From positions 21,699 through 85,698 of the IMG/VR virus record IMGVR_UViG_3300012351_000007: a DNA stretch of 64,000 nt; one strand, written 5' to 3'. Within the stretch, counting starts at the first letter, position 1. Each line of letters starts with the position of its first letter. This stretch comes from a virus. Below are positions 5,501-64,000 of the stretch, piece after piece. The position numbers and the translations under genes were made by a program. The notes under the pieces were generated by a model. That model searched no databases. It saw only the letters and a program-made list of their open reading frames with translations, and was not told the DNA's origin.

Positions 5501-6863
5501 CCTGCGCGATGGCGAAAGCGTTCTGCCGAGCCGTGTTGCCTTCGGCGATGCGGGCATCCGACAGCGCCTGGGTGGCCTTACGCACCTGATCCTGCGACTG
5601 GGTGACCCGATCCTGGGCGGCCACCACCTGCTGGGAGCCGTTGACGCCCTGGCGCTGCGCGGTGGCCAGATCCTGCTGGGCCCGCTGCTGCCGGATACCC
5701 AGGTCGGTGATCTGCTGCTTGGCCTGGTCGTACTGGAGTTGCGCTTCCTGCCGGGCCAGCTGCGACGACGCCGGGTTCGCCCGGACCGCCTGCAGGTTCA
5801 GTTCGGCCTTCGTCAGGTCGATCTGCGCCTGCCGCTGCGACAGGGTCCCGTCGGCGACCTGGGTGGCGAGGTCTTCCATCGCCCGGCGGGCCGACTCCCG
5901 GGCCCGGGTCAGGTCCTGCTCGGCGAGCAACGCGGCATGTTCGGCCTGGGTCAGGGACTGCTGCGCGGTGGTGACCGCCTCCGCAGCGCGACGCTGCGAG
6001 TCGGCGGCGTTGGCGCGGGTGTTGGCCAGGGACCGTTCAGCGGATGCGACCGCATCCTGCGCGGAGGCGACCTGCACCTGCCGGGACGCCAGTTGCACGG
6101 CGTCCTTGGCGGCGGCCTGGTCGGCGGTACCCATCGCCTTGACCGCATCGCCGATGCCGTGGGTGGCGAGCAGCACCACACCGAGGCCGGCGACGGCGCC
6201 CAACGCCCCGGCACCGATCCCGGCCACGGCGGCGGCGCAGGCGGCGGCGACGGGGATGATGCCCGGCCCGAGGGCCAGCCCGGCGGCGAGGAGCGCACCC
6301 ATGCCGCCCGACGAGCGGTCCGCCGCGCCCTTCACCGACTCGACTTCGGCGGCAGCCGAAGCGGCGTTGGTGTCGATGTGGACGTTCGGGTTCAGTCGCC
6401 CGATCTCGTGGACCTTCTCGATGAACAGGTCCAGTTCGGCGGTGGCTCGGGCGGTGTCGGCGGTTATCTGCGCCGAGGATGTGCCGGTGGACAGGCGGTC
6501 CAGTTCGGTCCGCAGTCCGGCGAGTTTGCGGTCCGCCTCGGACGTGTCGGCGCCGATCTTCGCGTTGGGTAGCGACTTGAGGGCGGCCTCGACGCGGCGG
6601 CGGAACGTGTCGGCGAAGGATCCGCCGGCCTGCTCCCCCGCCCTAGCGGCTTTGCCGGTGGCGTCGCGGGCGCCCTTGGCCACCCCGTCGCCGACTCCGG
6701 ATGCGATCCGGTCGGCCATCGCCTTGGCGATGATGGCACCGAGGTCGCTGCCGACCTTCGCGGCCTGCCCGGAGGTCTGCGCCTGGAATTTCGCGAAGAA
6801 GCCCTCACTTGAGGGCAATACATCGACGTATACCGATCCGGTGGAGGCGCCTTCGCTGGGCAT
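2511..6863 (-). CDS. tape measure protein with NlpC/P60-like domain
   Basis: At 1450 residues this is the largest gene, and it follows the tail chaperones as tape measures do. The N-terminal 180 residues include a region of Asp/Ala-rich heptads; residues about 190-235 are a hydrophobic Ala/Gly stretch; about 250-480 is a long Gln/Ala-rich coiled coil; further hydrophobic segments lie around 590-780. Near the C-terminus a peptidoglycan hydrolase-like NlpC/P60 domain has Cys1289 in a YDCSGA motif and a candidate catalytic His1347 in VGHTAG. Such domains open the cell wall during DNA injection. Using about 0.15 nm per residue the tail would be near 200 nm (inference). Confidence 0.92.
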   Translation of the reverse strand: MPSEGASTGSVYVDVLPSSEGFFAKFQAQTSGQAAKVGSDLGAIIAKAMADRIASGVGDGVAKGARDATGKAARAGEQAGGSFADTFRRRVEAALKSLPNAKIGADTSEADRKLAGLRTELDRLSTGTSSAQITADTARATAELDLFIEKVHEIGRLNPNVHIDTNAASAAAEVESVKGAADRSSGGMGALLAAGLALGPGIIPVAAACAAAVAGIGAGALGAVAGLGVVLLATHGIGDAVKAMGTADQAAAKDAVQLASRQVQVASAQDAVASAERSLANTRANAADSQRRAAEAVTTAQQSLTQAEHAALLAEQDLTRARESARRAMEDLATQVADGTLSQRQAQIDLTKAELNLQAVRANPASSQLARQEAQLQYDQAKQQITDLGIRQQRAQQDLATAQRQGVNGSQQVVAAQDRVTQSQDQVRKATQALSDARIAEGNTARQNAFAIAQASQGVVSAQRSLQQATVAAGTAGSSAMDTLRQKMAALSPEGQAFATFLYSLKPVWLDLTAAAQAGFLPGLQTGISALLPVMPQIIGDVGTLSRTMGNLAAEAGRALAAPYWQSFFHFMAGEANTALIIFAPAAANAAVGVSGLVRAVLPIGQNFGQGLLYLSERFAYWGTSLEHNTGFQNLLGYIRTETPIVIAVLGQLVVAVGRIAEAAQPVGGVVITTIRLLADVINVLPIPVLTVLVGTISGVVVAMKAWQAIQAAQVTLLPIWAAAQRIYNASVAGAGTAMAGTSGSFGTFGTALAGIKGGAQGAGGALSQLASGLGTGGVIGLAVAGAFIAFTAVSSALAAQRARTEELTRAMVALHTALNAAGGANKDTVKSIVEGNEDFSRAVRLAGDYGITSDALVRALKGEKGAQDEVTAALDAKIKKDEEQFSNFSLSDAGLKQLNRERQLRDALKSTYGQINDNAQVEAILAGQQDKAADSAYKQTAAQAALGNALNVLADRTSTAAQKADALKQADDALFGAMRSADQAAEDFKAAQDRLSQSVQQGSHDIGLNTQSARDNYDAVKNLLKAADDEYFAQVRNGTAVEEATAKHDNQIRTIKEQAKQLGLDSGQVNHLIDTYGRVPTDVSTQVQVSGVQGALDQLKNLEIAQISLRQGVDVPTATRIWREQNPTAGGRADVGGHATGGPVYGSGTTTSDSIPALGPIPGVRYRLSLDEHIWTADEVKAAGGHSAVTALRNAVLAGMLKPPQTRYPGDGSGGLAFARGGPVVWPFPVNIANLWKPTPDELRAAVFYGPAFTGPISGNIAGIQAWIRAQAGKPYIWASAGPRGYDCSGATSAVWRLAHGQSPYVHQFSTMNEAPYFPLRGFGGIFTAGWTNPGERGPGGSSVGHTAGVFAGLPFESRGGDGFVVGRGVTSVSSFAHVGHFDGGGILPPGLTIARNDTGRNEFVLTDEQVRRIGSDGPNITIPVYPQPDHSPAEIAAAVSHEMAWQFH

Positions 6864-6866
6864 GAC

Positions 6867-7352
6867 TCACCCCGCCTCGGTGCCGTCCCCCAACGAGTAG
6901 CCGTGCAGTTCGGCGTGCTCGCGGCGGATTCGCGCCAGATAGGCGTGACCCTCCGGGGACAGCGCCCGCCGTCGCCGAGCCGGCAGGCCCGGCCGCGGCC
7001 ACGGCGCCGGTGGGTCCTTCAGTCGCATCCCCGACGCGACCACACCCAGCAGGTCGATGACCCGGGCAAGCAGCAGATCCGAATGCGACCAGCGGCCGTG
7101 CCCCTCCTGTGGCAGCCGGGCAATCTTCGCCAACTGCTCGTCGGGGATCTCGTCACGCTGCGCCGTCTTCGTCGCCGACTCACCCGGCAGGGCGTAGTCG
7201 ATGAGCACCTTCAACCGCCGATACGTCAGCCGCGCCGCGCCGCCGCCGGGGCGCCACAGGTCCCGCAGGTCGATGCCGCAGTAGCGTTGCAAGTCCGCTT
7301 CGACTTCGGCCACGTGGCTGGCGAGGACCGCCGTGACCGCGGCTATTCCCCC
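6867..7352 (-). CDS. tail assembly chaperone GT extension (frameshift product)
   Basis: This reading frame has no convincing start of its own and overlaps the end of the G gene in the -1 frame, beginning at the slippery site at 7346-7352. Translation after the shift gives about 160 residues fused to the first tail chaperone, as in lambda gpG-gpGT. The region contains a Trp/Arg-rich middle (DLRDLWRPGGG) and a proline-rich C-terminal linker. It lies directly before the tape measure, which the GT fusion is known to bind in siphophages. Confidence 0.8.
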   Translation of the reverse strand, partial: GGIAAVTAVLASHVAEVEADLQRYCGIDLRDLWRPGGGAARLTYRRLKVLIDYALPGESATKTAQRDEIPDEQLAKIARLPQEGHGRWSHSDLLLARVIDLLGVVASGMRLKDPPAPWPRPGLPARRRRALSPEGHAYLARIRREHAELHGYSLGDGTEAG

Positions 7353-7717
7353 AGCGACTGCCCGACGGTGTTGGCCCAGGCGGTGAAGAACGCCCGCTGC
7401 TCCTTCAGGGTCGGGTTCAACTGCATCCACCGCATCGCATCAGCCGGCGACAGAGTCTGCTGCGCCCACGTCAGGTCGTCCTCGCGGTTGATGGCATGCC
7501 GGGCAATCGAGGTCCACTCCTCAACGGGCGGTACCCGCATGTCGTGAAAGCCGAGCCGGGTCGTGAGAGTGACCAGGATGGCCCCGTTCTCGTCGACCAG
7601 CCGTTCGGCGCGGGTCTCTGCCTCGGCCGCGTCCAGCGGGGTGACCGCCGCCGCGTTGCGCTTGGATGCCAGGTCGGCTGGTGGCTGCTCGGCGCGCGCC
7701 CTGCGTGGTGCTGCCAT
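7343..7717 (-). CDS. tail assembly chaperone G
   Basis: The 124-residue protein lies between the major tail protein and the tape measure, the conserved site of the tail assembly chaperones. It starts with a basic, Ala-rich segment and has a central alpha-helical domain with DLTWAQQTLSPADAM. Its stop codon immediately follows a GGGGGAA heptamer, so a fraction of ribosomes would shift to the downstream frame and make the longer GT form. The stop/start overlap with the upstream tail protein gene suggests coupled translation. Confidence 0.85.
   Translation of the reverse strand: MAAPRRARAEQPPADLASKRNAAAVTPLDAAEAETRAERLVDENGAILVTLTTRLGFHDMRVPPVEEWTSIARHAINREDDLTWAQQTLSPADAMRWMQLNPTLKEQRAFFTAWANTVGQSLGE
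7346..7352 (-). promoter_or_regulatory. -1 ribosomal slippery site for tail chaperone
   Basis: On the minus strand the heptamer is GGGGGAA, read in the zero frame as G GGG GAA followed by the TAG stop. A -1 slip changes the reading to GGG GGA ATA and opens the downstream frame to 6867. Heptamers of this type just before the stop of the first chaperone gene are well known in long-tailed phages. Confidence 0.75.
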
Positions 7718-8295
7718 CAGCCCAGCGCCGGAACGATGTCGTATGCCTGCACCGCGACACCGCTGGAGTTCGGGTAGGCGGTGAACGTGACCCCGTACAT
7801 GGCGGCGTCGGTGGTGGCGTACTTGATGTCCTTGCGGTCGGTGACCTCAAGTTGCGGGCAGTAGATTCGGTGGTGTGTGGTGCCGTCGATGATGTCGAAC
7901 ACCCCGGCCACCAACTGGCGGGTGTAGATGCCGAAGGTGTAGGAGAACGCGCCGGTACCCACGCCAGCGGTGAGGGTGTTGAACGCGATGCCGTAATACA
8001 GCTCCATAACGCGGAGATTCTTTTCGAGGAAGGTAATGTCGAACGTCACCGACGCATCGGTGATGATCTTCCGCTGGATCTGCAGCGACCCGTACGCCTT
8101 CACGTCCTTGCTCGACGTGTTCAGCTTCTCGGTGAGTCCGTCCTCCGAGACAAGGCCAGCGTTCTTCCATGCGGCCGCGAGCGCTGTCGTCGCGTCGGTA
8201 GGCGCGGTGGAGCCGGTGATGCCGAACCACGACAGTCCAGTGCCGTCGGCACCAGCGCCACTAGTGCCGACAAGAATGTTCCTGTTGTCTCCCAC
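7717..8295 (-). CDS. major tail protein
   Basis: The 192-residue protein has the sequence character of siphophage tail tube subunits: a short N-terminal arm, a segment EDGLTEKLN-SKDVKAYGS, a central QIQRKIITDASVTFDITFLE strand set and a C-terminal half ending in YPNSSGVAVQ. It is placed directly before the tail chaperones. The start is a GTG at 8295 preceded by an AAAGG ribosome binding site. It assembles the hexameric rings of the tail tube. Confidence 0.9.
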   Translation of the reverse strand: MGDNRNILVGTSGAGADGTGLSWFGITGSTAPTDATTALAAAWKNAGLVSEDGLTEKLNTSSKDVKAYGSLQIQRKIITDASVTFDITFLEKNLRVMELYYGIAFNTLTAGVGTGAFSYTFGIYTRQLVAGVFDIIDGTTHHRIYCPQLEVTDRKDIKYATTDAAMYGVTFTAYPNSSGVAVQAYDIVPALG

Positions 8296-10100: not shown

Positions 10101-10747
10101 CAGGGCGCGACACCCAGTTCGCCGAACTCGGCCTCGATCCAGGAGTTCGGGTTGTAGTCCACGATGTCGAAGGCGAACAGGCTCCCGGCGGCGTCCCGGT
10201 CGGCGGCCTGGTCCCGCAGTGCCTGGGCCCGTGCCCGGAGTTCGGCGGCGACCTTCGCCCCGTCGGTTGCCAGATCCTGGGTCTTGATGACCTTGCTGAC
10301 GAGCACCTCGGACGAGGCGATGGTGTCCAGGGCCTGCGCGGCGGCCAGCCGCACATTGCCCTGCTCGATGGTGAGGAACGCGCCGATCTGCCCGTCGGTT
10401 AACAGCGGTGCCGTGTCGGACAGGTCGGTGGACAGCAGCCGCACCTGCCCGACGGGTGTGGTCGGGTCGGTGGTGATCGGCGGGCCGGGCAGCGGGTTCG
10501 CGGCGACGTACACCTGCTGCGGCTCGGCACCCGCCCCGGTGCCTGAGACGGTCCACAGGTACACCCACCAGCCGGCCTGGTTGAGGATGACACTGACCCC
10601 GGTCCAGGTGTGGCCGCCGTCGGCGGTGGTCGTGGCCGGGTGGGTGGTAGTGCCGTCGGGGGCCAGCACAGCGAGGGTTGCTGCGGTGGTGCCGTCGTAG
10701 GGGGTGACCGTCAACTGCGGGATGTCCACATCACCTATGCCGAGCAC
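10100..10747 (-). CDS. head-tail adaptor with Ig-like N-terminus
   Basis: The 215-residue protein has a beta-sandwich-like first part (residues about 10-85, TVTPYDGTT, TWTVSGTG) and an alpha-helical C-terminal part (about 105-190, QVRLLSTDLSDTAPLLTDGQI) of the head-tail adaptor type. The second part matches the usual length and look of gp6/gp15-like adaptors. It lies first in the connector cluster. The fusion of a beta domain to an adaptor is common among these phages. Confidence 0.75.
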   Translation of the reverse strand: MLGIGDVDIPQLTVTPYDGTTAATLAVLAPDGTTTHPATTTADGGHTWTGVSVILNQAGWWVYLWTVSGTGAGAEPQQVYVAANPLPGPPITTDPTTPVGQVRLLSTDLSDTAPLLTDGQIGAFLTIEQGNVRLAAAQALDTIASSEVLVSKVIKTQDLATDGAKVAAELRARAQALRDQAADRDAAGSLFAFDIVDYNPNSWIEAEFGELGVAP

Positions 10748-10759
10748 GGCCGCCCCCTG

Positions 10760-11938
10760 TCACGGTGAGAGGCGGCTGGCCGCGGCGAGTTCGGGCGGCG
10801 AACGCAGGGCGGTCAGGGTCGGCCGGGTGTCCGTGGCGGTGAGGGTGGAGTTCGGGCGGTCGGTGGCGGTCAGGACCAATGCGGGCGGCCCGACCGCCCC
10901 GGCGCGAACTGTCGCTTCGTAAGCGGCGCCGAGGGCTTGCGCGGCCTGAACAGCCGCCAGGACCGTGAGAGACGGCGCGCTGGCGGTACCCAGCCCGGTT
11001 GCCGTGGGTGCGGCGGTGGTGGCCGCCACGGCGGGCTGCCCGGCTGTTCCCGCGCCGGTCGCCGAGCCGGCCTGCGTGGTCACCGTGGCCGATGCTGTGC
11101 CGGCAGCGGCGGGCCCGGTGGCGGCGGCCGTGTAGGCGACAACGGACACCCCGGGGGCGTTGGCGCTACCGGTGCCCGAGGCGGGCTGCGCCGAGGCGAC
11201 TGTTTCGCTGCTCGACGAGCCGGTGACGTTGTAGGCGGCCCCGGTCCCGGTGCCCGCCTGCGGGTAGACGACGATCGTAGCCGCAGGGCCTGGTGCGGTG
11301 CCTGTCGAGTCGGCCGGGGCGGCGGACGGTGCCACTGCGGCGGATGTCCCGAGTGCACTGCCGGTGCCGGGCGCGACACCCGCAACTGGGGCGAGGGTGG
11401 CTGCGGGGGGGAACGCCGACCCGGTGCCGGTCGCCGACGCGGCGGGGGTCACCTGCGGGCTAGCGTTCGGGGCGGCGCCAACACCCGTAGCTGCGGTCGG
11501 GTTGGAGACGACCTGCGCTGACGCCGCGGCGCTCCCCGTACCGGACACCGCCGGGGCTGCCGGGGCCACCGTCGGGGCCACGTTGAACGCGGCACCCGTA
11601 CCACTGGACGCGCCCGCGTTGGGGGTGACAACTGCTGTTGCCGACGCGGACCCGACACCCGAGGCGTTCCCGACATTGGGGGAGACTGCGGCGGACGGGT
11701 TGTTCGCCGCACCCGTCCCGGTCGCCGCGACGGCGTAGGCGGTCACCAACGCGCCCGGGTTGGGCGCCGAGCCGGTCCCGGAGGCTACGGCAGCGTTCGG
11801 GGTGACCTGCGCGGCGACGGCGTTGGCTGTGCCCGTTCCGGTGGCGGTGGTCGCGTTCGCTGTTGTTGATGCGGCACCCGCCGAGGCGGGGAGGATGACG
11901 ATCGCCGAGACGGGCTGGGCGCGGCCGATGCGGGCCAC
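10760..11938 (-). CDS. Ala/Gly/Thr repeat structural protein
   Basis: This 392-residue protein consists largely of degenerate repeats around the pattern A-x-G-T-G-x-A with Pro/Val spacers every 15-18 residues, from about residue 15 to 350. There is almost no charged residue in the repeats. A short C-terminal part (about 355-392) is of normal composition. Its place among head and connector genes suggests a capsid fibre, spike or surface protein. I know of no specific function; the repeat DNA is likely prone to copy-number change. Confidence 0.6.
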   Translation of the reverse strand: MARIGRAQPVSAIVILPASAGAASTTANATTATGTGTANAVAAQVTPNAAVASGTGSAPNPGALVTAYAVAATGTGAANNPSAAVSPNVGNASGVGSASATAVVTPNAGASSGTGAAFNVAPTVAPAAPAVSGTGSAAASAQVVSNPTAATGVGAAPNASPQVTPAASATGTGSAFPPAATLAPVAGVAPGTGSALGTSAAVAPSAAPADSTGTAPGPAATIVVYPQAGTGTGAAYNVTGSSSSETVASAQPASGTGSANAPGVSVVAYTAAATGPAAAGTASATVTTQAGSATGAGTAGQPAVAATTAAPTATGLGTASAPSLTVLAAVQAAQALGAAYEATVRAGAVGPPALVLTATDRPNSTLTATDTRPTLTALRSPPELAAASRLSP

Positions 11939-11947
11939 CGGCGCCCC

Positions 11948-12715
11948 CTACCAGTTCGCGGCGCGGGTCACCGCCGCCGTCGGAACCACAACCGGCAGGA
12001 CTGGCCCCGCCGCTGCGGCAACCTTGACTTCCACCGCGACCGCCGCGACATTGAACAGCGCCCCACCGCCGGACCGCAGATCAGCCCAGTCGACGGTGGT
12101 CGATGTCGATCCGGTGCGGACTTCGCTTTCCAGGCCGCCCCAGTCGGTGTTCGTCAGGTCGTCGACCTCGGTCCACGTGCCAGCAGTACCGGGAGTGGCG
12201 CCGGCCGCGGACTTGTCCATACCGGCGACGGCGAACACTTCGTTCGTGGACGCCGGGGCGGCGGACAAGGTGATGCTGAACGGCGACGGTGGACCGGAGA
12301 AGCCGCCGTTCTGTGAGCCGGTGGCCGTCGCCCCGGTCGGCGCCCCAGTGTTGTATCCGGTGTAGGCGACGACGGACACGGCGTACTCGCCGATGGCGCG
12401 GCCACCGGTGCCGATCGTCAGCGTCATCGACGCCCCGGTGCCGACGGCGGCCGTGAAAATCTTCGTAGCGGTGGGGTACGAGGTCGGCGAGACCGACACG
12501 CCCGGGCCGCCGGTGTAGGTCCAGCCGCCGCCGCTGACCGTTATCGCGCTGAGTGGGTCGGTGGTGGTGCCGTTGTTCTCGATGATCGACACACCGACGA
12601 CGAGCAGCGAGTTGTCCGGCGGCGTGAACGCGTTGGTGACGAAGTTGCCGGTGCCGAAGTTGCCGGTGGGGGTTGGGCTGATCTGTCCGAGCAGGCTGGT
12701 GCGGGACAGCGCCAC
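11948..12715 (-). CDS. phage structural protein, beta-rich
   Basis: The 255-residue protein is rich in Gly, Thr, Ser and Ala and appears to be an all-beta (jelly-roll or lectin-like) domain; motifs such as VVGVSIIENNG and AVSVVAYTGYNTG are typical of the exposed virion proteins of actinobacterial phages. It lies between two other structural genes. The role, perhaps a head or neck decoration protein, is inferred. Confidence 0.6.
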   Translation of the reverse strand: MALSRTSLLGQISPTPTGNFGTGNFVTNAFTPPDNSLLVVGVSIIENNGTTTDPLSAITVSGGGWTYTGGPGVSVSPTSYPTATKIFTAAVGTGASMTLTIGTGGRAIGEYAVSVVAYTGYNTGAPTGATATGSQNGGFSGPPSPFSITLSAAPASTNEVFAVAGMDKSAAGATPGTAGTWTEVDDLTNTDWGGLESEVRTGSTSTTVDWADLRSGGGALFNVAAVAVEVKVAAAAGPVLPVVVPTAAVTRAANW

Positions 12716-15774: not shown

Positions 15775-16962
15775 CTAACCACCTGTGGACGCGACGCCCG
15801 ACTTCGGGTCAAATAGGGCACCCCCGAGGACGTGCCTGACCCGGTACCGGATCCCGTCGTTGGAGAAGTCGCCCTCCTCCGGGCCGACGATCCCCCCACC
15901 GACCCGCATCGCATCCGGGGCCTTCATCCACAGGTCCGGGGTCTCATGCCCGGTCAGGAAGCCGACCTCCATCGCCGGGCGCCCCTCGTTCGGGTTCGCG
16001 AACAGGTACCACGCGGTATTGCCCTTCGTGGTGTCGATCAGCGGCAGCCACGGGTTGACGACCGGCTTCACCTTGTTCTGCATCCAGTTCGCCACCCGCA
16101 GGGCGTCGTTGCTGGACAGGTTCCCGCCACCCGTAGGCCCGATGATCTCCGTCGCGTTGATGATGTTGTTGGCGACGACCTCCAGCGCCGGCGGAACCAC
16201 CAGGGTCACAGCGTTGATGTAGATCGGGCCGCCGTCGGAGTCGACCTGGCTCGCGAGGACAGTGAAGGCCGTCTGCAGACCGGCCACCGACAGCGTCGGG
16301 TTGCCGGTGACGATGTTCTTGTTGCCACTGGAGAAGAACGTCGCGTTGGGTCCGGTACTCGATGCGAACAGGGCGGTGGCGAACTGCTCCTCGGTGCGCC
16401 GCGCCGCCAACGCGAGGGCCTGCGGCAGTTCGGTGAACGCGCCCAGGTCGTCGTTGACGATCGACTCCCACGAGATGTCGATCTCGGCGCCGTACTTGTC
16501 CACCGAGTACTCGTACTTGCCGTCGGCCACCGGGCGGGCGGTGTACGGGGCGAGTTCCTTCACCTTGGCCAGCAGCGCCTTGCCGCCGTCCAGGGTGAAC
16601 CGGCGCACCAGGCGGAAGTCCCGGACCCGCCCCCGCTTCGCCCAGGCGTCCCACTGGATCGGCATCGTCGCGTACGCGGCGAGCAGCTGCCGGTCAATGA
16701 CGTCGGCGAACAGGTAGGAGAAGTCGGAGCGGGTCAACGCCTCCTGGAAGTCCAGGGCGGCCCGGCGGGAGCCGGACATGACCGACTCGTACATCCGCAT
16801 GACCTCCGACAGGCCCCGCTGGTAGGCGGGGTCCTGCCGGCGCTGAACGCGCCGGCCTTCCCCGGCGAAGATGCGTTCGGTGGCAGCGTCGTCGGTGCCG
16901 CCCTCGAACGTGGCCAGCCGGTTCAGGCCGGTACCGATGCCGGGCAGGGTTGCAGTCGTCAT
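15775..16962 (-). CDS. major capsid protein
   Basis: The 395-residue protein follows the capsid protease and decoration genes. After an N-terminal helical arm (about 1-90), the body has the features of an HK97-type fold: a spine-helix region near 165-185 (FTELPQALALAARRTEEQFATAL), and the P-domain/A-domain segments up to the VGFLTGHETPDLW and EEGDFSNDGIRYRVRH motifs near the C-terminus, both typical of actinophage major capsid proteins. It builds the icosahedral head. Confidence 0.9.
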   Translation of the reverse strand: MTTATLPGIGTGLNRLATFEGGTDDAATERIFAGEGRRVQRRQDPAYQRGLSEVMRMYESVMSGSRRAALDFQEALTRSDFSYLFADVIDRQLLAAYATMPIQWDAWAKRGRVRDFRLVRRFTLDGGKALLAKVKELAPYTARPVADGKYEYSVDKYGAEIDISWESIVNDDLGAFTELPQALALAARRTEEQFATALFASSTGPNATFFSSGNKNIVTGNPTLSVAGLQTAFTVLASQVDSDGGPIYINAVTLVVPPALEVVANNIINATEIIGPTGGGNLSSNDALRVANWMQNKVKPVVNPWLPLIDTTKGNTAWYLFANPNEGRPAMEVGFLTGHETPDLWMKAPDAMRVGGGIVGPEEGDFSNDGIRYRVRHVLGGALFDPKSGVASTGG

Positions 16963-17320: not shown

Positions 17321-19218
17321 CAGCGACGACCTCCCGCCGCGACGAGCGCCGCATCGCTGCTCATCCCAAGACGTTTGAACGACTCGGCGAGGCTGGTCTC
17401 GAACTGCTTCGTCGCGTCCGGGCCAGCGGTGCCGGCGCCCAGGCCGGCGCCCACTCCGGTTACCCGGCCGTCCCCGGCGGCCTCCCGCAGCGACGCCACG
17501 TAGGTTTCCTCCGCCTTCGCCGCCTCGGCGACCGCGGTGCGGAACGTCGCCTCGTCGAGGCGCAGCACCTTCACCGCCGCCCCGTCGCGCAACTCGTCGG
17601 CCTCCGCGAGCGGCACATCCCGCACCGCCGCGGCCAACACCCGGTCCCGGGCGGCCAACGGAAGGTTGGACTCGGAAAGGATGCTCGACGCGATCGGCCG
17701 GGCCGCCTCCACGGCGGTCAGCCGGGCCAGCGACTGGCGCATCTCCTGCGCCTCCCGCACAGCGGTGTCGCGTTCCTGCTCGGCCTTCACGCGAGCCTGC
17801 TCGGCTTCGGTGACAGCGGCCGGCACCACGGCGGTGGCCTCGGTTGCCCCCGCCGCACCCGGCGCCGGGCCGGTGTTGGTTCCAGACACGCTGGACTCCT
17901 TCTCGGGTGGGTTGGGTTCGGCCGGCGGGGCGCCGCCCGTGACATCAGTGAGGGGAGGGGGTTCGGTCATCGGCTCGTCGGCCTCGACAAGTCCGGCACC
18001 GGTACAGGCCGGCACAGCGGCCTCGCCCATGCCAGCCATCCGCAGCAGCGACGGCGGCGGGTCTTCTTTCAACTGGGACCGGTACAGGCCGACCAGTTTG
18101 CGGGCGGCGGCCTTCTTCGCATCCGCAGACGCGTTCACCCCGCCCCGGCCACCGGCCAGCGCCGACGCAGCTGCGTGCACCCCGTTGCGGTTGACGGTGC
18201 CGTCGGGCTGCTTGACGGGTAGCTTGTAGCGGTCTTTCGAATCCGGGGAGCCCTGCCCGGTGTCGAGCAGGCATGCCCGCCGGTACTGCTCCGGGGTGTA
18301 ATCCGAGGCCGAGAATTGCGACCACGGGGTGTCGCTGACCTCACTCAGCGACAGAGCGGCCTCGGACACGGCCGTGCCGTCCTCGGGCGGGCCATCGTAG
18401 AGATCCCTGGTGAAGAGCTGACCTGCATCTTTCTCGACCCGGGCCGTCCACGCCTGCAAGGCGTCGCCGACCGCGTTGGACAGGGTGATCCGCTCATCGC
18501 GGGTCAACTGGCCGTTGCCGTACATCTGGTCCGCGATGTCGGTCAGCGCGCTGTGCAGTTGGGCTTCGATCCAGGCGCCGATGTTGCGCGCCTCCCGGAT
18601 CTGCACCCCACCCTCGCGGGCCGCCTCCACCAGGGAGACGAGCTTCCCGCCGGCGCCGGCCTTCGTCACGAAATCCACGGAGTAACCGCGGTCGATGGAC
18701 TCGATGACGATCCCCGACCGGTCGCCGACCTTCCCGACCGTGCCGGACCCGTCGCCGCGCACCGACAGGCCGACCGCATCGGCCAGCGCCTCCACCAACG
18801 GCACGGCGTGGGGGAAGACTTCGATGTCGGCGTACAGGCCATCACCCTCGTAGACGGGGGTGGACACGACGCGGCCGGCGAGGTCGCGGACGGACCGCTC
18901 TGGCCGGTCCGCAGACTCGGCGATCGACGGGTGATCCAGAAAGACCTGCGTGGTCCCCGCGGGCCAGGCCGTAGGGCCATCCCGCTCGAGCACCTTCGCT
19001 GGCCAGTAACCCGACGTCCCCCACCGGTCCCCTTCGATCAGCCGCGCCCGGTACCGTCGCCCACCGGCCGGCGTGAGGCTGCCCATGGTGGCCTCGGCGA
19101 TGGCAACCCGCTCGACGGTGGCCGCCGACTCGCGCAGTTGCACCGGAACCGGGAACGCCTTGCCGGGGGGCACCACGGCACCCCAGCCGGGGCGGCGCAG
19201 CTTACGGCGGTTCGACAC
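17320..19218 (-). CDS. capsid maturation protease and scaffold
   Basis: The 632-residue protein has a protease-like N-terminal part with candidate catalytic residues His96 (VFLDHP) and Ser152 (VGLSVRG), as in HK97-type prohead proteases. A middle region (about 330-400) has a short domain around KDRYKLPVKQPDG and ADAKKAAARKLVGLYR, seen in similar phage proteins. From about 430 to 480 it is Pro/Ala-rich, then about 485-560 is a coiled coil, which should act as the scaffold removed after assembly. It immediately precedes the decoration and capsid genes. Confidence 0.85.
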   Translation of the reverse strand: MSNRRKLRRPGWGAVVPPGKAFPVPVQLRESAATVERVAIAEATMGSLTPAGGRRYRARLIEGDRWGTSGYWPAKVLERDGPTAWPAGTTQVFLDHPSIAESADRPERSVRDLAGRVVSTPVYEGDGLYADIEVFPHAVPLVEALADAVGLSVRGDGSGTVGKVGDRSGIVIESIDRGYSVDFVTKAGAGGKLVSLVEAAREGGVQIREARNIGAWIEAQLHSALTDIADQMYGNGQLTRDERITLSNAVGDALQAWTARVEKDAGQLFTRDLYDGPPEDGTAVSEAALSLSEVSDTPWSQFSASDYTPEQYRRACLLDTGQGSPDSKDRYKLPVKQPDGTVNRNGVHAAASALAGGRGGVNASADAKKAAARKLVGLYRSQLKEDPPPSLLRMAGMGEAAVPACTGAGLVEADEPMTEPPPLTDVTGGAPPAEPNPPEKESSVSGTNTGPAPGAAGATEATAVVPAAVTEAEQARVKAEQERDTAVREAQEMRQSLARLTAVEAARPIASSILSESNLPLAARDRVLAAAVRDVPLAEADELRDGAAVKVLRLDEATFRTAVAEAAKAEETYVASLREAAGDGRVTGVGAGLGAGTAGPDATKQFETSLAESFKRLGMSSDAALVAAGGRR

Positions 19219-23198: not shown

Positions 23199-23856
23199 TC
23201 AGACCCGCTCCGGCCAGTGCCACGTGCCGCCGTGGAGTTTGGCCTCGCGCCATCCGCAGGAGCATTGACTTCCTCCACCGCCGTGAACGGCGGGGATTCC
23301 CTCCGTGCTGCGCGTGGAACGCACAACGCCCGGGTGGGTTCCTGGTTCATCGCAGTCCGCCCGGGCAAGCCCAGGTCTTACGTCTACTCCGCAGGCGTTT
23401 TCCGTCTCCGCAAGCCCTGCGGCGACGTTTGGTGCGTCGGGCTCCAGCTTGGTTATCGCTGGAGCCCGGCCGGACGGTACCACAGTCAAGGGCACTGCTC
23501 GGGCCTTGGCGGCCCTCCCAGCGCGGGCCTTCACCCCCGCCCTCAAGGGCGGAGCACTGGCCCGCATCCCGGTAGCGCATGGGGTTGCCGTGGATCTCCG
23601 GGTTCAGGCAGTCGGGTGATTCGGGCTCCTCTGCACCCTCGTCGTACCGGCAGCCACCGGCCGCGAGCGAATGCAGGAAGATGCCCGTCGGGTTCAGTAC
23701 CGCCAGGACAACGCGCTCGCCGCCGAGACTGCGCGGCACGCCAAGCTCGACCTCGGTCACGATGGCTGCGCGGCACTCTGACCTGAACTCGCCACCCGGG
23801 GTTCCGAACGAGACATAGTGCACGACGCGGCCGACCGACGGCTGCTGGTCAACCAC
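23199..23856 (-). pseudogene. hypothetical gene split by a mini-IS insertion
   Basis: The 5' part (from 23856, MVDQQPSVGRVVHYVSFGTPGG onward to RYRDAGQCS) and the 3' part (CGWREAKL-HGGTWHWPERV, ending at 23199) fit together into one protein of about 120 residues if the 292 bp at 23265-23556 is removed. The joined product starts with a GRVVHYVSFG motif and ends in GTWHWPERV, a combination I recall from small hypothetical proteins of actinomycetes and their phages. Both junctions carry the same TGCTCC hexamer on the minus strand. The function is unknown. Confidence 0.7.
23265..23556 (-). mobile_element. miniature IS200/IS605-family element with TnpB 3' remnant
   Basis: About 290 bp split a phage gene and are flanked by the hexamer GGAGCA (plus strand 23259-23264 and 23551-23556). 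Read on the minus strand, one end has the hairpin CCGCCC-TTGA-GGGCGG and the other ends with CCGCCGTTCACGGCGG, GGAGG and AAGTCAA, the palindrome-plus-tail form of IS605-type right ends. Between them a frame on the minus strand (LAETENACGVDVRPG, then EPGTHP) looks like the C-terminal remnant of a TnpB protein. The omega-RNA of such elements overlaps the end of tnpB and the right end, so this piece may keep an omega-RNA-like sequence; that is inference. Confidence 0.7.
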
Positions 23857-31235: not shown

Positions 31236-31639
31236 AGTCCGATTCCTCTCATGGGGTTGTCGCGCCACATGTCGTACTCCACCGGGGGCGTCGGCTCAGC
31301 CCACCCGGTTAGCGGCGACCAGTACCGCGCCACGATCCCGAGAATCACCGCCGGTGAGCGCTCGCGGTACTCCTGGAAGACGCCAGTCCGCCACCGCCAC
31401 TCTCGGTTGTTACATGAGCGACACAGCCACCCTCGGATACTGCCCGTCTGGTGGTCGTGGTCAAGGACCTCCAAGGTGTCCGCGCACACTGCACATCGGC
31501 CGGCTTGCCATTCGGCGAGGACGGAGTCTCCCGTGAAGTCGGTGGCGGCTGCGGCTGCGGCACGGACGCCATCGCTGATTGGCCACTCCCAGCATGCCGG
31601 ATGCTCCGGGGCGGGCCGCCAGTAAAATACGTCAGTCAC
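31232..31639 (-). CDS. endonuclease VII-type HNH nuclease
   Basis: The 135-residue protein has the recombination endonuclease VII core: CAVCADTLEVLDHDHQTGSIRGWLCRSCNN, with two CxxC pairs holding zinc and a DHDH metal site. The GTG at 31639 overlaps the stop of the integrase. The family resolves or nicks branched DNA; in phages it often helps replication and packaging. The N-terminal 60 residues are Trp-rich and not recognised. Confidence 0.85.
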   Translation of the reverse strand: MTDVFYWRPAPEHPACWEWPISDGVRAAAAAATDFTGDSVLAEWQAGRCAVCADTLEVLDHDHQTGSIRGWLCRSCNNREWRWRTGVFQEYRERSPAVILGIVARYWSPLTGWAEPTPPVEYDMWRDNPMRGIGL

Positions 31640-32636
31640 GATCCACCCCGGCGGTGGCGGCAGCCACGAGGTAGGACGGGTCGCGGTCGAGGGATGCGCG
31701 GGCACGGTCGTAGCGCTGGGTGGTGCGCGGGTCGGCATGGCCTAGGGCGTACTGCCGCTCCTCCAGCGGCGCGCCGCGTTCCCGGGCGATGGTTGCCCAG
31801 GCATGCCGGAACGAGTGCGGGGTGATCCTCGCCCAGGAGTTGATGCCAGCCGCTTTCGCCGAGCGGCGCACGAAGGCGGCCACCTGGAAGCGGTTGATCC
31901 GTCGCCCGTCCTCGTCAAGGAACAGCGGACCGGTCGTCCGGTCGCCGACGTATGCGGCCAGCGCGGCGGCCAAATCCGGGGGAACCGCCCGGGTACGGAC
32001 CTTCCCGCCTTTCATCTGAAGAGCGGCCGTGCGGTGCCCCGAGTCGTGGCCAAGGTGCTCAACATCGAGGGCGCAGATCTCCGACACCCGGGCGCCGATC
32101 TCGACGAGGAACCCGGCAAGAGCCGCCCCGCAGGCCGGGCCGAGGAAACGGTCCTTCCTCGCCGCTTCCCGCAGCGCGGTTGCTTCGTCGGCGTTCAGCC
32201 CGATGGTGGTCGTGTGGTCCTTATCCACTCGCGGGCGCCGGACTCGCCCGCACGGGTTCGCGGTGACCTTCCCCGCGTCGAGCAGGTAGCCGTACCACGA
32301 CGAGACGACCGACAGGCGCCGCGCAAGACTCGCCGGGGAGAGCGGGCGGCCGGTTCGGGGGTTGGGGAGGTTGGCGAGCATCGCGGCGAACGCATCGACG
32401 TGGGGGCGCCGGGCGGTGAGCGGGTCCAGTGGCGGTTGGCGTTCGGCGCACCAGGCGAGCCACGCGGTGATGTCGCGGCGGTAGGCGCCACGGGTGTCGG
32501 CTGATTCCCGGAATGACAGGAGCCACGCGGCGGTGAGCGACTGGAGGTCATCGCCCTCGACCGCGGCGACCGGGTCAACGATCTCCCCGTGGATGACTGG
32601 AGCTAGCGCGGTTCTCCCGAGATCGAGATCGGTCAT
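31632..32636 (-). CDS. int: tyrosine integrase 1
   Basis: The 334-residue recombinase (ATG at 32636) has an N-terminal core-binding domain and a catalytic domain with all usual residues: Arg183 (GARVSE), Lys212 (GGKVRTR), His274-x2-Arg277 (HSFRHAW), His300 (LGHADP) and Tyr309 (TQRYDRA). It lies in the middle of the genome between lysis-region and early genes, as in many actinophages. No tRNA piece is next to it. A second integrase is at 60479-61384. Confidence 0.88.
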   Translation of the reverse strand: MTDLDLGRTALAPVIHGEIVDPVAAVEGDDLQSLTAAWLLSFRESADTRGAYRRDITAWLAWCAERQPPLDPLTARRPHVDAFAAMLANLPNPRTGRPLSPASLARRLSVVSSWYGYLLDAGKVTANPCGRVRRPRVDKDHTTTIGLNADEATALREAARKDRFLGPACGAALAGFLVEIGARVSEICALDVEHLGHDSGHRTAALQMKGGKVRTRAVPPDLAAALAAYVGDRTTGPLFLDEDGRRINRFQVAAFVRRSAKAAGINSWARITPHSFRHAWATIARERGAPLEERQYALGHADPRTTQRYDRARASLDRDPSYLVAAATAGVDRD

Positions 32637-33065: not shown

Positions 33066-33134
33066 CGACTCCGACCGCGCGGAGGTTGTACAGCCTCAAC
33101 CTCTTGTCGTGGGCTCATCGGTCAGCTCCCAGGA

Positions 33135-33168
33135 GACCCCCGGCTTTAGCCGTGGGGAGGAAGTCAAA
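33135..33168 (+). mobile_element. IS200/IS605-like right-end hairpin remnant
   Basis: ACCCC-CGGC-TTTA-GCCG-TGGGG followed by AGGAAGTCAA has the same hairpin-plus-GGAGGAAGTCAA tail as the right end of the insertion at 23265-23556. No tnpA or tnpB is next to it and no left end is seen, so it may be a solo end or a very short derivative. Confidence 0.5.
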
Positions 33169-33214: not shown

Positions 33215-33303
33215 GAGAAAGATTGTCGGTGCGGGCTGATCAGGCGCCTAAGGAGTGGGGTATCCGCACGGCCGTCGTGCCGGGTGCCGCTTCGCCGGGA
33301 AGC

Positions 33304-33504
33304 TCAACGTCCCATCTGTTCGCGAATCTCGTCCCGGATCACCGCGAGCACCCTGAGCGCAGCGTCATCGGCACCCTTGCCGCACCGGCAACCCTCGACG
33401 CAGCAGGTGGGGATCGGGTCGTCCCAGTCGGCGATGTCGTGGACCACGCCAACGTGCGGGCAGGGCGGGTCGTTCGGGCACAGCCACCAGCCGGACTCGC
33501 TCAC
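33304..33504 (-). CDS. small Cys-rich protein
   Basis: The 66-residue product has CPNDPPCPHVG, CCVEGCRCG, six Cys and several His, a probable zinc-binding unit, and a C-terminal helix. The GTG at 33504 overlaps the upstream stop (GTGA). The first of a long series of similar early genes; not recognised. Confidence 0.65.
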   Translation of the reverse strand: MSESGWWLCPNDPPCPHVGVVHDIADWDDPIPTCCVEGCRCGKGADDAALRVLAVIRDEIREQMGR

Positions 33505-60080: not shown

Positions 60081-60482
60081 TTGAACGCGAAACGTCGGGG
60101 GCGGCGAATCCACGCCGACATGGTTGCCCGTTGGGGCGGCTTCACTACAGGTGCCCTACTCGTCGCCTACGACCTGGTGACCGTCGTCGCCCAGTTGCCG
60201 AGCCTCCCTGTTGGCCCGCACATCGACCTGTTCGCGGTCGCCCTGGTCCTCGCCGTGTGGGGGTCCATCCGCCGCTTCGAGCGCATCACCATCACCCCGC
60301 AACGGGAGATCTGGCTGCATGGCGTCCAGTACGGCCGGGAAGCCGCCTACGAGGAATGCGGTGCCCAGGGCAGCGTGGTGCCGTTGCCGCTGAACCTGTT
60401 CGCCAGCGACCTCGTACCGGACCGCTCGACGGGGCGGCCAGCCAGCCACCGGCCCAGCCCGCGGCGCCGACGGGCGAACTAG
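60081..60482 (+). CDS. plus-strand membrane-type hypothetical protein
   Basis: The 133-residue product starts at a TTG (60081) with a GGGGGGA ribosome binding stretch. It has a basic start (NAKRRGRRIHAD), two hydrophobic helices (GGFTTGALLVAYDLVTVVAQL and IDLFAVALVLAVWGSI), and a Pro/Arg-rich tail. It ends convergently with the integrase, overlapping it by four bases. It may be expressed from the prophage (lysogenic conversion). Confidence 0.6.
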   Translation: MNAKRRGRRIHADMVARWGGFTTGALLVAYDLVTVVAQLPSLPVGPHIDLFAVALVLAVWGSIRRFERITITPQREIWLHGVQYGREAAYEECGAQGSVVPLPLNLFASDLVPDRSTGRPASHRPSPRRRRAN

Positions 60483-61384
60483 AGCCGGTCGCCGAGGGAC
60501 AGCCGCCGGGATGCCCGCTGCGCCCGCTCCACCTGCGCCGAGCGGCCGTACCGACGTGGCATCTCCGCCGACGACCAGCCGAACAGCGCCATCGCGTCGC
60601 CCTCCGAACCGCCCTGATCGGCCCAGACATGGGCCGAAGTGTGCCGCAACTGGTGGGGGTGGACGTGCCCGATCCCAGCAACCCTCGACCGACGGCGCAA
60701 CATCTGCGTGATCCCGGAGACGGTCAGCGGACCACCCCGGCCACCCAGCCACAGTTCGGGCAGCGACGCCAGCTTGTGCCGGGCGCGCACCCGCAGATAC
60801 CGGTCCAATGATTGCCCTGTGCGGGCGCCGAACGGAATCACCCGGATCTTGTCGCCCTTCCCGTGGATCCGCACGGTGTCGTGGCGCATGTCCAGGTCGG
60901 GTGCCTCCTTCGGTCCGCGGTCCAGCAGCAGACCAGCCATCTCGGCGACCCGGGGTGAACCCGGCTCGCAGAACAGCCGGATGATCGCGGTGTCCCGCCG
61001 GTCCTCGAAGCCCTTCCCCTCGCACACCTTCAGCAGCCGCCGCAACTGGTCGTCGGTCAGGACCGCCACCGGCTCGTCGGTAACGGTCGGCTGGCGCATC
61101 CGAGCCATCGGCGACACGTCGATGATCTCTTCCCGGACGGCCCAGTTGTAGAACGCCCGCAGCGCGCGGAACCGCACTGCCGCAGTCGTTGATGCGTGCT
61201 GGTCGAGGATGTGCGTGATGTACTCCTGCACCTCGGCCTTGGTCAAGCCGAGCACGTCGGCGTCGTTGTGGAGGGCCGCCAGTTGAAGGATCGTCTCGAC
61301 GTAGTTCTGGATGGTGCGGGGCGAGCTGTTGCGGGAGCGCAGGTCGCGGCCGTAGGCGTCGAGGTGGGCGGCGTTGATGTCCAT
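60479..61384 (-). CDS. int: tyrosine integrase 2
   Basis: The 301-residue recombinase has an N-terminal SAM-like domain (about 1-95) and a catalytic domain with Arg145 (SPRVAEMAG), Lys179 (GKGDKIRVIPFG), His244-x2-Arg247 (HQLRHTS), Trp270 in place of the second His (LFGWSS), and Tyr279 (RRYGRS). The Trp variant is known in active enzymes. The tRNA-Arg fragment at 61496-61538 lies 110 bp upstream, so this integrase most likely acts at that attachment site. Confidence 0.88.
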   Translation of the reverse strand: MDINAAHLDAYGRDLRSRNSSPRTIQNYVETILQLAALHNDADVLGLTKAEVQEYITHILDQHASTTAAVRFRALRAFYNWAVREEIIDVSPMARMRQPTVTDEPVAVLTDDQLRRLLKVCEGKGFEDRRDTAIIRLFCEPGSPRVAEMAGLLLDRGPKEAPDLDMRHDTVRIHGKGDKIRVIPFGARTGQSLDRYLRVRARHKLASLPELWLGGRGGPLTVSGITQMLRRRSRVAGIGHVHPHQLRHTSAHVWADQGGSEGDAMALFGWSSAEMPRRYGRSAQVERAQRASRRLSLGDRL

Positions 61385-61461
61385 GGGGCTACAGCGTACG
61401 GCACGATCAAGGCCCAGTAAGATGCTTCGTGAGCGGTGTGGCCGATTCTTGCCAACAAGAA

Positions 61462-61495: not shown

Positions 61496-61538
61496 CGCGC
61501 CCGAAGGGACTCGAACCCCCAACCTTCTGATCCGTAGT
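61496..61538 (-). other. 3' half of tRNA-Arg(ACG), probable att site
   Basis: The minus strand reads CTACGGA (anticodon loop, ACG), the 3' anticodon stem, variable loop, T-arm with TTCGAGT and the acceptor strand CGGGCGC plus discriminator G. No D-arm or 5' acceptor half precedes it; the upstream bases are unrelated. Integrases of temperate phages use such 3' halves as attachment cores. The gap between 61385 and 61606 otherwise contains only the terminator. Confidence 0.85.
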
Positions 61539-61606
61539 ATGCGGCCTGTAAGCGCTGTGGCGCACCGTGTCTGACCTCGTACTGGTCGGGAGCGTGGAAA
61601 CGCAGA

Positions 61607-61825
61607 TCAGATGCTATTGGCTACAGCGCTTCGTGCACCGCTCGCGGCCGTGGCGACCCACTCCCCGTCGACCTGCGCCACGTAGCTGCGGAGCAGACCA
61701 CGGTCGGCCTCCCGGATCGGCTCGTTGCATCCGAAGCAGACCTCGCCGACCGGTGTCGGTACCTGCTCGGCGTTCTCATCCAGCAGAGGGGCGTCCCAGC
61801 GGGGACCGAAGTAGAAGGTAGTCAC
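61607..61825 (-). pseudogene. broken zinc-type protein next to att site
   Basis: The 72-residue frame (GTG 61825) starts TTFYFGPRWDAPLLDENAEQVPTPVGEVCFGCNEPI, which I recall as a common actinomycete small protein whose second half has an H-x-E-C zinc half-site. Here the frame ends soon after EWVATAA; a neighbouring frame still shows AVHEAL, so a frameshift or truncation has removed the C-terminus. It lies just beyond the attachment site. Confidence 0.55.
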
Positions 61826-62172
61826 GGGGGTATCAACGAGCGCGAGCCGGACATGCCTCAGCCCCGGCTGATCCGGACTCCCCCGGGCCGGGGCTGAGCG
61901 CAGAGCCGTCCTCCACTTGACGCGGACCCGGACGGTCGTTCCGCGCTGCGGACCGGAGCTGCCTACCGATCGCGAGCTTTCACTACTCCGCCGCCCGGTG
62001 TCAGTCCGGAGGGGCGTCCCCGGATACGGCACCGCACAGCCGTTTCGCTACGCCGGGGGTCTAGGTCGGTAGGTACCCGCCCCGGTTCGGCCTTATCACT
62101 ACCCGATCCGGGTCAGCGTAGCGCCGGGGTACGACACGAATCCACGAACGCCGCACGGGTACCGTCCGGATC
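61826..62172. other. non-coding gap with a long hairpin
   Basis: No gene is supported in this 347-bp gap. CTCAGCCCCGGC (61857-61868) and GCCGGGGCTGAG (61887-61898) form a perfect 12-bp stem around an 18-base loop, close to the start of the broken gene. It could be a terminator for either strand or a 5' leader structure. I see no CRISPR repeat here. Confidence 0.5.
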
Positions 62173-62415
62173 GTGCAATACCGCTTCCTCGGCGCCTACC
62201 AGACCCCGGACGGACGGTGGCGGATCGAGGTCTGGGCAGGACGTGGGGCGCAGTGGTACACCGTGCTCCACGACGGGCAGGTTTACGACCGGGACGGCTT
62301 CCTGTGCGAGCGGGTGCCCCTCGGCACCGTCGAGGCGGTGCTGCGCGCCAACGGGGTCAGCATGGCCGACCTGCGGCCGGAGACTGCGGACGGGCCGGAC
62401 GACGGACCAGCGTGA
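62173..62415 (+). CDS. small hypothetical protein convergent with cas2
   Basis: The 80-residue protein has an alpha/beta pattern (MQYRFLGAYQTPDGRWRIEV, GQVYDRDGFLCERVPLGTVEAVLRANG). It starts at a GTG and ends 59 bases inside the 3' end of cas2, on the opposite strand. Not recognised; no known link to CRISPR function. Confidence 0.65.
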   Translation: MQYRFLGAYQTPDGRWRIEVWAGRGAQWYTVLHDGQVYDRDGFLCERVPLGTVEAVLRANGVSMADLRPETADGPDDGPA

Positions 62416-62665
62416 GCCCGTCCAGGTCAACTGGCATCCACCGGTCCACGCCTGCGGTTTGCGCCGCCCACCGCTGCTCGTTCGCCATGCGGCGGATCAG
62501 CACCGCCTGCCCCTTCCCTACCCGGCCGCACACCACCGACCACACCTTGTCCCGCACCCGGGCACTGGGAGTGCCGACGAACACGCCCGGGGCGATCTCC
62601 ACCATCCACCGGGTCAGATGCCCGCGCAGCCCGGACGGTGCGGCGATAAGCACGATGACCGTCAT
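62357..62665 (-). CDS. cas2: CRISPR-associated Cas2, type I-E
   Basis: The 102-residue protein has type I-E Cas2 features in order: a first strand (VIVLIAAP), then SGLRGHLTRWMVEIAPGVFVG, ARVRDKVWSVVCGRVGKG and PVDLDGLTLVR, matching the E. coli family layout. Cas2 dimerises and bridges two Cas1 dimers in the spacer integrase. Its ATG overlaps the cas1 stop by four bases, so both are co-translated. The length is normal for I-E. Confidence 0.93.
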   Translation of the reverse strand: MTVIVLIAAPSGLRGHLTRWMVEIAPGVFVGTPSARVRDKVWSVVCGRVGKGQAVLIRRMANEQRWAAQTAGVDRWMPVDLDGLTLVRRPARPQSPAAGRPC

Positions 62666-63663
62666 TGCTCGTCCAGCTCCGACCAGTCCACCTTGCCTAG
62701 GTCGACCGCCTCCTGCTCATCGGCCCAGTTCCGTCCCGCCGGCACGGCACCGTTGGTGTCCCACAACTGGGCGCGATGTACGTCCGCCTCGTCGTCGAGC
62801 CCGTCTGGCTCCTCTTCCCCGGCGGTGGCCTTGTCCTCGCCGAGCAGCAGGGCTTGGATGTCCCGTACCACCCGGGCCATCAGCCCCTGCTCCACCACCA
62901 GATCCCGGAATCGGGTCCGCGCCGCCGACTCCTCCGTGGCGCCTTCGGACATCAGATCGAATGCGGCCGGGATCGTCGTCATGGCTTTGTACAGGTCGGC
63001 GATGTCGAGCACGAACGAGATGGCCGACCCGGTGTGGACGAAGCCGAGTGCTGGGCTGGCACCCAGGCCGACGGTGGCGGCGTGGCACACCCCGTAGAGG
63101 CAGGCGTTGAGCGCCGACAGTACCCGGTTGATGTCGTCACCGGCTGCGAACGGCTTCCCGGCCACATACTTGCGCCCGGACCACGCAACCCCGGTGCGGG
63201 AGGCGTGCAGCCGGTAGGAGCGGCGCACCCGGGCACCCTCCCGGCCCCGCAGTTGCTGCATCGACAGTTTGGAAACGTTCTCGCCAGGGAACCGCATCTG
63301 GTACATCTGCCGGGCAACACCGAGGCGCCGCTTGTTGTCCGACACCAGCCAGGCTTGGCGCTGCAGGTAGCGGGATGTGTGGGCGGTGGACACGCCGTGG
63401 GCATACATCCGGACGCCGTTCTCCCCGACCCAACAGACGGTGGTCCCGGAATCGGCCAACAGCCGCACCGCGCTGTGGGTCACCTTCGTGCCCGGTCCGA
63501 GTAGCAACGCGGACACCATTGCGGCCGGCAGGTGGGTTTCGCCCTCGGCGTCCAGGAGGGTGACCGCGTTGTCTTCGCGGCCGATCACGGCCCGATCAAC
63601 GTAGACCGTTGAGATTCGCTCCCCGATCCGGGTGAGCATTCCTGTCTCTGCTTTCCACCACAT
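62662..63663 (-). CDS. cas1: CRISPR-associated Cas1, type I-E
   Basis: The 333-residue protein aligns in pattern with E. coli Cas1 and keeps the metal site: Glu142 (GREGARV), His210 (LGFVHTG), Asp220 and Asp223 (VLDIADLYK). The start may be the ATG at 63663 or that at 63639 (MLTRIGERIS), which begins the conserved part. The C-terminal 60 residues are an acidic extension beyond the usual I-E length of about 305. It is the spacer integrase that cuts and joins DNA at the array. The gene immediately upstream is a repeat array, not cas6e. Confidence 0.95.
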   Translation of the reverse strand: MWWKAETGMLTRIGERISTVYVDRAVIGREDNAVTLLDAEGETHLPAAMVSALLLGPGTKVTHSAVRLLADSGTTVCWVGENGVRMYAHGVSTAHTSRYLQRQAWLVSDNKRRLGVARQMYQMRFPGENVSKLSMQQLRGREGARVRRSYRLHASRTGVAWSGRKYVAGKPFAAGDDINRVLSALNACLYGVCHAATVGLGASPALGFVHTGSAISFVLDIADLYKAMTTIPAAFDLMSEGATEESAARTRFRDLVVEQGLMARVVRDIQALLLGEDKATAGEEEPDGLDDEADVHRAQLWDTNGAVPAGRNWADEQEAVDLGKVDWSELDEQ

Positions 63664-63784
63664 GCCGGAAGATGCTGCCGCCCGGGCGTCGGGCCGGGCA
63701 ACGTTCCGAACGGGTGAACCGATGCGGCCGGGCCGCTACCCAGCGGCTGGTAGCCCAATCGGAGCTATTTTTGGAGTCCTTCTT

Positions 63785-63992
63785 GACACGCTCATGCGCG
63801 CCCGGGCCGGCCTGCCGTACCGGCGGGTCCGACACAACGCGACTCCGCCATCCCCGCGCGCCCGGACCGGACGGCGGCGGCCCGGTCACCGAGACGCAGG
63901 GCCAGCCGCCACCCCCGCGCGCCCGGACCGGACGCACCGCACGCACCGCCCTCGACTGGGCCTGCACCGCCACCCCCGCGCGCCCGGACCGG
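63785..63992 (-). CRISPR. type I-E-like CRISPR array, partial
   Basis: Three copies of a repeat (core CCGCCA-C/T-CCCCGCGCGCCCGGACCGG on the plus strand) end at 63870, 63931 and 63992, and a degenerate copy ends at 63810, so the period is 60-61 bp. With a 29-bp repeat the spacers are 31-32 bp, the type I-E geometry. Read on the minus strand the repeat resembles actinobacterial I-E repeats (GCGCGGGG-x-TGG core), so the leader should lie to the right, outside the window, and the degenerate copy is the trailer end next to cas1. The stem of the repeat is weak compared with usual I-E repeats. Confidence 0.65.
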
Positions 63993-64000
63993 CCCACCAC

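Follow-up and report, generated by a model that had tools for sequence, protein, structure and literature searches.

The locus

We analysed a 64,000-base stretch of viral DNA (the window), which forms the right-hand part of the 85,698-bp IMG/VR record IMGVR_UViG_3300012351_000007 and carries, at its right end, a clustered regularly interspaced short palindromic repeats (CRISPR) array together with the type I-E adaptation genes cas1 and cas2, beside a phage integrase. The analysis took in the whole record. The element appears to be a temperate tailed phage from a soil-type actinobacterium, and phage structural genes occur in the same record as the phage attachment arms at this locus. In window coordinates, the features are:

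60479..61384, minus strand: tyrosine integrase (int 1) with PF00589 and a SAM-like N domain; its start adjoins the attachment core
61497..61541, minus strand: predicted core of a phage attachment site (attP), the 3′ part of tRNA-Arg(ACG) from anticodon loop to acceptor end (from the sequence and alignment with L044 and L039)
61542..61660, no strand assigned: predicted second attP arm (P′), with the arm-type site GCATCTGATC on the minus strand (from alignment to the L039 attP and the L044 right attachment site, attR)
62357..62665, minus strand: cas2 (type I-E, Cas2e, 102 amino acids), from PF09707, TIGR01873 and a match to solved type I-E Cas2
62662..63663, minus strand: cas1 (type I-E, Cas1e, 333 amino acids), from TIGR03638 and alignments
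63785..63994, minus strand: CRISPR array with repeats at 63967–63994, 63906–63933 and 63845–63872 and a degenerate repeat at 63785–63812; consensus GTCCGGTCCGGGCGCGCGGGGGTGGCGG

Cas1 scores 340 bits with TIGR03638 (cas1_ECOLI; cut-off 215.6), and alignments with solved type I-E Cas1 and with relatives show that its catalytic residues E142, H210 and D220/D223 are retained. Cas2 reaches 108 bits with PF09707 and 61.7 bits with TIGR01873, both above cut-off, and the window thus holds the Cas1e and Cas2e that a type I-E CRISPR–Cas system requires (TIGR03638 and TIGR01873). The array comprises three 28-nt repeats, the first and third with one mismatch each, at a start-to-start spacing of 61/61 with unrelated 33-nt spacers, within the 28–29-nt repeats and 32–33-nt spacers typical of type I-E. 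The degenerate fourth repeat, counted by hand, matches at 18 of 28 positions. The array lies directly upstream of cas1, reads in the same direction and turns its trailer end towards that gene; since this degenerate, old end adjoins cas1, the leader would lie beyond the contig end at 64000, 6 bases past the last repeat.

Searches for cas3, casA, casB, cas7, cas5 and cas6e found none in the whole record (tblastn, E 0.01), a statement on the 85.7 kb present, as the record stops inside the array region. A sequence-only reading of this DNA had described intact cas1 and cas2 with conserved catalytic residues, an array instead of cas6e immediately upstream of cas1, a phage integrase alongside and no interference gene in view, and each of these points was borne out within that scope.

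An attachment site of phage type

That reading had also placed a tRNA attachment site beside the cas genes. An attachment site is present, but the tRNA gene is not intact: the core is a 45-bp tRNA fragment whose 3′ end faces int, to the left; no intact tRNA gene was found at the site, and the 5′ half of the tRNA is missing from the cas side. Beyond the core, the cas-side sequence aligns with the attP of phage contig L039, over its P′ arm, and with the L044 attR; the aligned part includes a CATCTGAT-like arm-type site. A site matching the P′ site lies on the int side, around 61420–61450. Integrase arm-type sites on both sides of the core are also the arrangement in the related phage. The integrase itself is 60% identical to that of IMGVR_UViG_3300037193_001772, a bearer of the same attP.

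In L044, an intact tRNA-Arg stands next to int (the left attachment site, attL) and a second copy of the core stands at the other end (attR). An integrated phage of such a layout has the full tRNA on the int side. Because the tRNA 5′ half is absent here and arms flank the core on both sides, the 61.5-kb site is best read from its sequence as an attP, in unintegrated phage DNA or a tandem, and not as a host attachment site (attB) or an attL. An attP with a P′ arm means that the DNA to the right of 61.5 kb would begin as phage-type DNA, not as host DNA upstream of a tRNA. We rejected the plain explanation of host DNA right of an insertion site, given the missing tRNA 5′ half and the P′ arm.

Recurrence on unrelated phages

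With the window Cas1 as single query sequence, no viral contig was matched; a Cas1 profile recovered a family of solo modules from viral contigs. The hunt for the same cas1–cas2 in other phage genomes, suggested by the sequence-only reading, recovered three further viral contigs (G021, G022 and G023) with a solo array–cas1–cas2 in the same order and the degenerate array end facing cas1. A scan for the repeat class yielded five viral contigs, adding G424 and G425.

G021, IMGVR_UViG_3300043787_000046, 68.8 kb: open on both sides of the module
G022, IMGVR_UViG_3300018482_000003, 29.5 kb: ends in the array, like the window
G023, IMGVR_UViG_3300036790_000293, 32.7 kb: ends in the array, like the window
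G424, IMGVR_UViG_3300021420_000016, 154 kb: array present; start of cas1 fused to end of cas2
G425, IMGVR_UViG_3300040759_000032, 132 kb: array present; cas1 reduced to its first codons

The three contigs with the solo module each carry tape measure and portal genes, and G022 also has terminase and capsid. Of eight type I-E reference proteins, only cas1 and cas2 match the window's record or any of these three (tblastn, E 0.05), and G021, in which flanks are visible on both sides of the module, has no other cas genes there. Two further IMG/VR matches, L089 and L091, have interference genes at the locus and were left out of the family.

An integrase lies near the array in both G424 and G425, and a conserved stretch of ~150 bp directly precedes the first repeat in these two contigs but not in G021; this is the place of a leader, which in the window would fall beyond the contig. 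Directly before this stretch, on the same strand, both contigs encode TnpB-like proteins of ~505 amino acids that are 54% identical (L117:18463–19983, plus strand; L122:4315–5826, minus strand). Aligned to a solved TnpB, they have RRxNTA in place of DRDxNAA, with R at the position of the third RuvC aspartate. Nuclease-dead TnpB-like regulators (TldR) are known on phages (PMC13418256). We regard the TnpB-like protein upstream of these arrays as a lead rather than a finding.

Cellular and plasmid loci are built differently. We found cas6e just upstream of cas1 in 32 cellular loci from a collection of 84,980 species' genomes, in two Streptomyces plasmids and in the seven best matches among 395 Actinomycetes genomes; in host loci the array, where seen beside cas2, lies downstream of it. 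Actinobacterial type I-E loci and Streptomyces plasmids such as pSM17A share with the window Cas1e, Cas2e, 28-nt repeats, 33-nt spacers and overlapping cas1–cas2, whereas the window record is without cas3, Cascade and cas6e, carries the array upstream of cas1, where those loci have it downstream of cas2, and differs in repeat and hairpin.

A distinct repeat family

The window repeat matches that of G424 at 24 of 28 positions and the other two phage repeats at 20 of 28, compared with only 15–18 of 28 for 21 host type I-E repeats, and none of 397 Actinomycetota genomes contains the phage repeat class. All four phage repeat types retain a type I-E-like 3′ half and the 28/33 spacing. In every one of them the outer two pairs of the type I-E Cas6e hairpin are broken, and the phage repeat RNA folds no better than shuffled sequences; a stable 7-bp Cas6e hairpin is thus missing from the window repeat and the three others. 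The 21 host repeats retain 6–7 of the 7 stem pairs, and the four that were folded reached −12.9 to −15.5 kcal/mol. By these comparisons, the phage repeats are a family of their own, unlike any host repeat examined.

Selection and possible spacer turnover

Among the phage cas1 genes, the ratio of nonsynonymous to synonymous substitution rates (dN/dS) is about 0.3, and cas1 is under purifying selection. The six arrays hold 38 spacers, mostly of 33 nt, and no spacer occurs in more than one array; this holds even for the three arrays whose repeats are identical, and it suggests turnover. In the Cas1 tree, G021–G023 form one clade (100/100). The shared repeat class and gene order argue for a common module.

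Searched against a phage collection, the spacers gave a best E of 0.4, and an exact scan with one G021 spacer returned only its own match. None matches its own contig (self excepted) or the other fetched phages, a weak test as the contigs are incomplete. The nearest candidate, G425 spacer 3 against L052/L076 (22/24, E 0.008), was judged a chance match given 38 spacers.

A probable phage-borne adaptation module and its alternatives

We consider a phage-borne, adaptation-only module the probable reading of the anatomy, at roughly three chances in four. The sequence-only reading had raised two options, a mobile adaptation module without its own interference genes and host DNA at a mere insertion site; as possible roles of a mobile module, it had suggested capture of spacers from rival phages or a supply of spacers to host Cascade. 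The mobile module is now favoured and in part supported, and the host-DNA option disfavoured, because the attP has both arms and the same solo module, with repeats of the same kind, is present on other phage contigs and was absent from every cellular genome examined. In this reading, the module would be cargo of a temperate tailed actinobacterial phage, carried on the P′ side of attP. During lysogeny or infection, phage Cas1–Cas2 would capture short pieces of the DNA present in the cell and add each as a 33-nt spacer where the phage's array adjoins its leader. That array, with a repeat family of its own, would read from the distant leader towards cas1–cas2. Because no interference genes were seen in the phage DNA, the guides would need a host-encoded effector; this might be, most plausibly, type I-E Cascade/Cas3, turned against competing phages and plasmids, and the lysogen would gain a growing, phage-specific superinfection immunity. 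For this whole chain, from spacer writing by the phage to use by a host effector, our confidence is tentative and a little short of even odds.

Several observations weigh against this account. In the window's contig, no sequence on the array side connects the module with structural genes. The P′ arm is established to about 61660 and the nearest end of cas2 is at 62357, and the ~700 bases in between (61.66 to 62.36 kb) may contain a boundary; a second element in tandem is likewise possible. The window Cas1 falls outside the phage clade, as sister to an actinobacterial host clade (100/99), and therefore the module was taken up more than once or its genes were exchanged. No convincing target was found for any of the 38 spacers. 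Finally, the broken Cas6e stem in all four phage repeat types counts somewhat against the account and makes it less likely that host Cas6e processes these repeats routinely.

The weak hairpin is the strongest single point against use by a host effector and, equally, the leading reason to consider a decoy or a different effector. As a spacer sink, phage Cas1–Cas2 and array would divert fragments of phage DNA from host arrays, the altered repeats would go unprocessed, and the host would fail to gain immunity. The loss of outer stem pairs from repeats that keep their type I-E-like 3′ half and spacing would fit such a role, as would the lack of interference genes, and Campylobacter offers a precedent in kind, where phages that encode a Cas4-like protein are associated with acquisition of host-derived spacers (PMC4804229). 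A sink, however, predicts self-phage spacers, and the weak test above returned none; we consider it unlikely. A separate effector could instead be encoded by the phage and be of a non-type-I kind, for example the TnpB-like protein whose altered motif and place before the array recur in two separate contigs. Yet those two contigs are without intact cas1–cas2, G021 has both genes and no TnpB-like protein at that place, and the TnpB may merely be an inserted element, so that this option seems very improbable. A broader form, in which an actinobacterial phage family carries self-contained, actively writing modules whose own repeat class and altered hairpin uncouple them from host Cascade, either as a spacer sink (anti-CRISPR at the memory step) or as guides for a non-type-I phage effector, is rather doubtful.

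Two remaining explanations concern origin more than use. The right-hand side could be a second element next to the phage, such as a tandem prophage, an integrative element or a host island carrying a type I-E locus, and the remaining cas genes of an operon would then lie past the contig end. That the record stops in the array, that the window Cas1 groups with cellular Cas1 and that conjugation-like genes at the record's left end may make it a composite are all consistent with this; on the other side, the arm on the right belongs to an attP of the same integrase family, the array-upstream order and the repeat fit the phage modules and not host operons, and host operons carry cas6e, not an array, upstream of cas1. 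This, too, is unlikely. A functionless, decaying remnant of a host or plasmid type I-E locus picked up by phages would account for G424 and G425, which retain the array with cas1–cas2 mostly deleted. It is improbable, however, in view of four separate phages with intact catalytic residues and frames, the dN/dS value, unshared spacers and the same unusual order.

Relation to known viral CRISPR systems

According to published surveys, phage CRISPR systems almost always come without Cas1–Cas2 (PMC7162821, PMC12607003). The type I-F system of ICP1 and the systems of huge phages (PMC7162821) share with the window a CRISPR array and cas genes on a phage, but ICP1 has a working system including interference, whereas the window module has adaptation genes only. 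Incomplete type I-B systems encoded by Haloferax proviruses (PMC12596717) likewise split CRISPR functions between virus and another replicon; there, interference genes occur without adaptation genes, the reverse of the window module. Archaeal virus mini-CRISPR arrays (PMC6858448) are also virus-borne, have no interference genes, are expected to rely on host effectors and parallel the leader-like stretch of the window's relatives. In contrast to the window module, those mini-arrays have 1–2 spacers, no cas genes and host-like repeats; the window has cas1–cas2 and a repeat class found in none of the 397 Actinomycetota genomes scanned. Our preferred reading can be seen as the virus-borne array idea of that work (PMC6858448) plus the writing enzymes.

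In the literature searched, with most subscription journals outside its coverage, we came across no account of a phage-borne type I-E module limited to adaptation. Such a module, with its own repeat family on unrelated phages, would be the mirror image of described phage CRISPR systems, and phages may thus operate, from their own genomes, the part of bacterial immunity that stores memory. It becomes possible to test whether phages keep a record of their rivals, sabotage the memory of the host or make use of its effectors, and the module could yield small, mobile Cas1–Cas2–array recorders.

Additional features of the record and related loci

One further open reading frame lies between the attachment site and cas2:

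62173..62415, plus strand: open reading frame of 80 amino acids, convergent with cas2 and overlapping its end (from the reading-frame call and coding score); no match in Pfam or NCBIfam

To the left of the window, at 1.9–14 kb of the record (L002:1920–4445, 6699–7799 and 10561–12687), lies a conjugation-like module with a TcpF/VirB4-like ATPase, an M23 peptidase, a DUF2637 protein and an FtsK-like translocase. A search for viral relatives of the TcpF-like protein found none. The whole record could be a phage-plasmid, or could join a phage to an integrative element.

Among related loci, L044:136–9473 holds an element of ~9.2 kb that extends from the intact tRNA-Arg(ACG) to the second copy of the core and encodes an integrase sharing 55% identity with that of the window; it resembles a small integrative element or a phage satellite. 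Plasmid pSM17A (L086) carries its full type I-E operon near a dnaB that is 46% identical to that of the window phage. On a 21-kb viral contig (IMGVR_UViG_3300043595_000035; L103:8142–11882), a 572-amino-acid protein with a TnpB/Cas12-like zinc-ribbon end, cas1, a 100-amino-acid reading frame and an array stand in one row, possibly a type V locus.

Within the phage, a second tyrosine recombinase is encoded amid phage genes (window 31632–32636, minus strand). Close by, 173 bp at window 33241–33413 are missing from IMGVR_UViG_3300012349_000015, a second contig of the same phage (99.9–100% identical), and near this difference a 49-bp stretch (33114–33162) recurs at record position 16332 beside a TnpB gene. 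A 212-bp direct repeat, 86% identical, joins window 23639–23850 with record 18105–18316.
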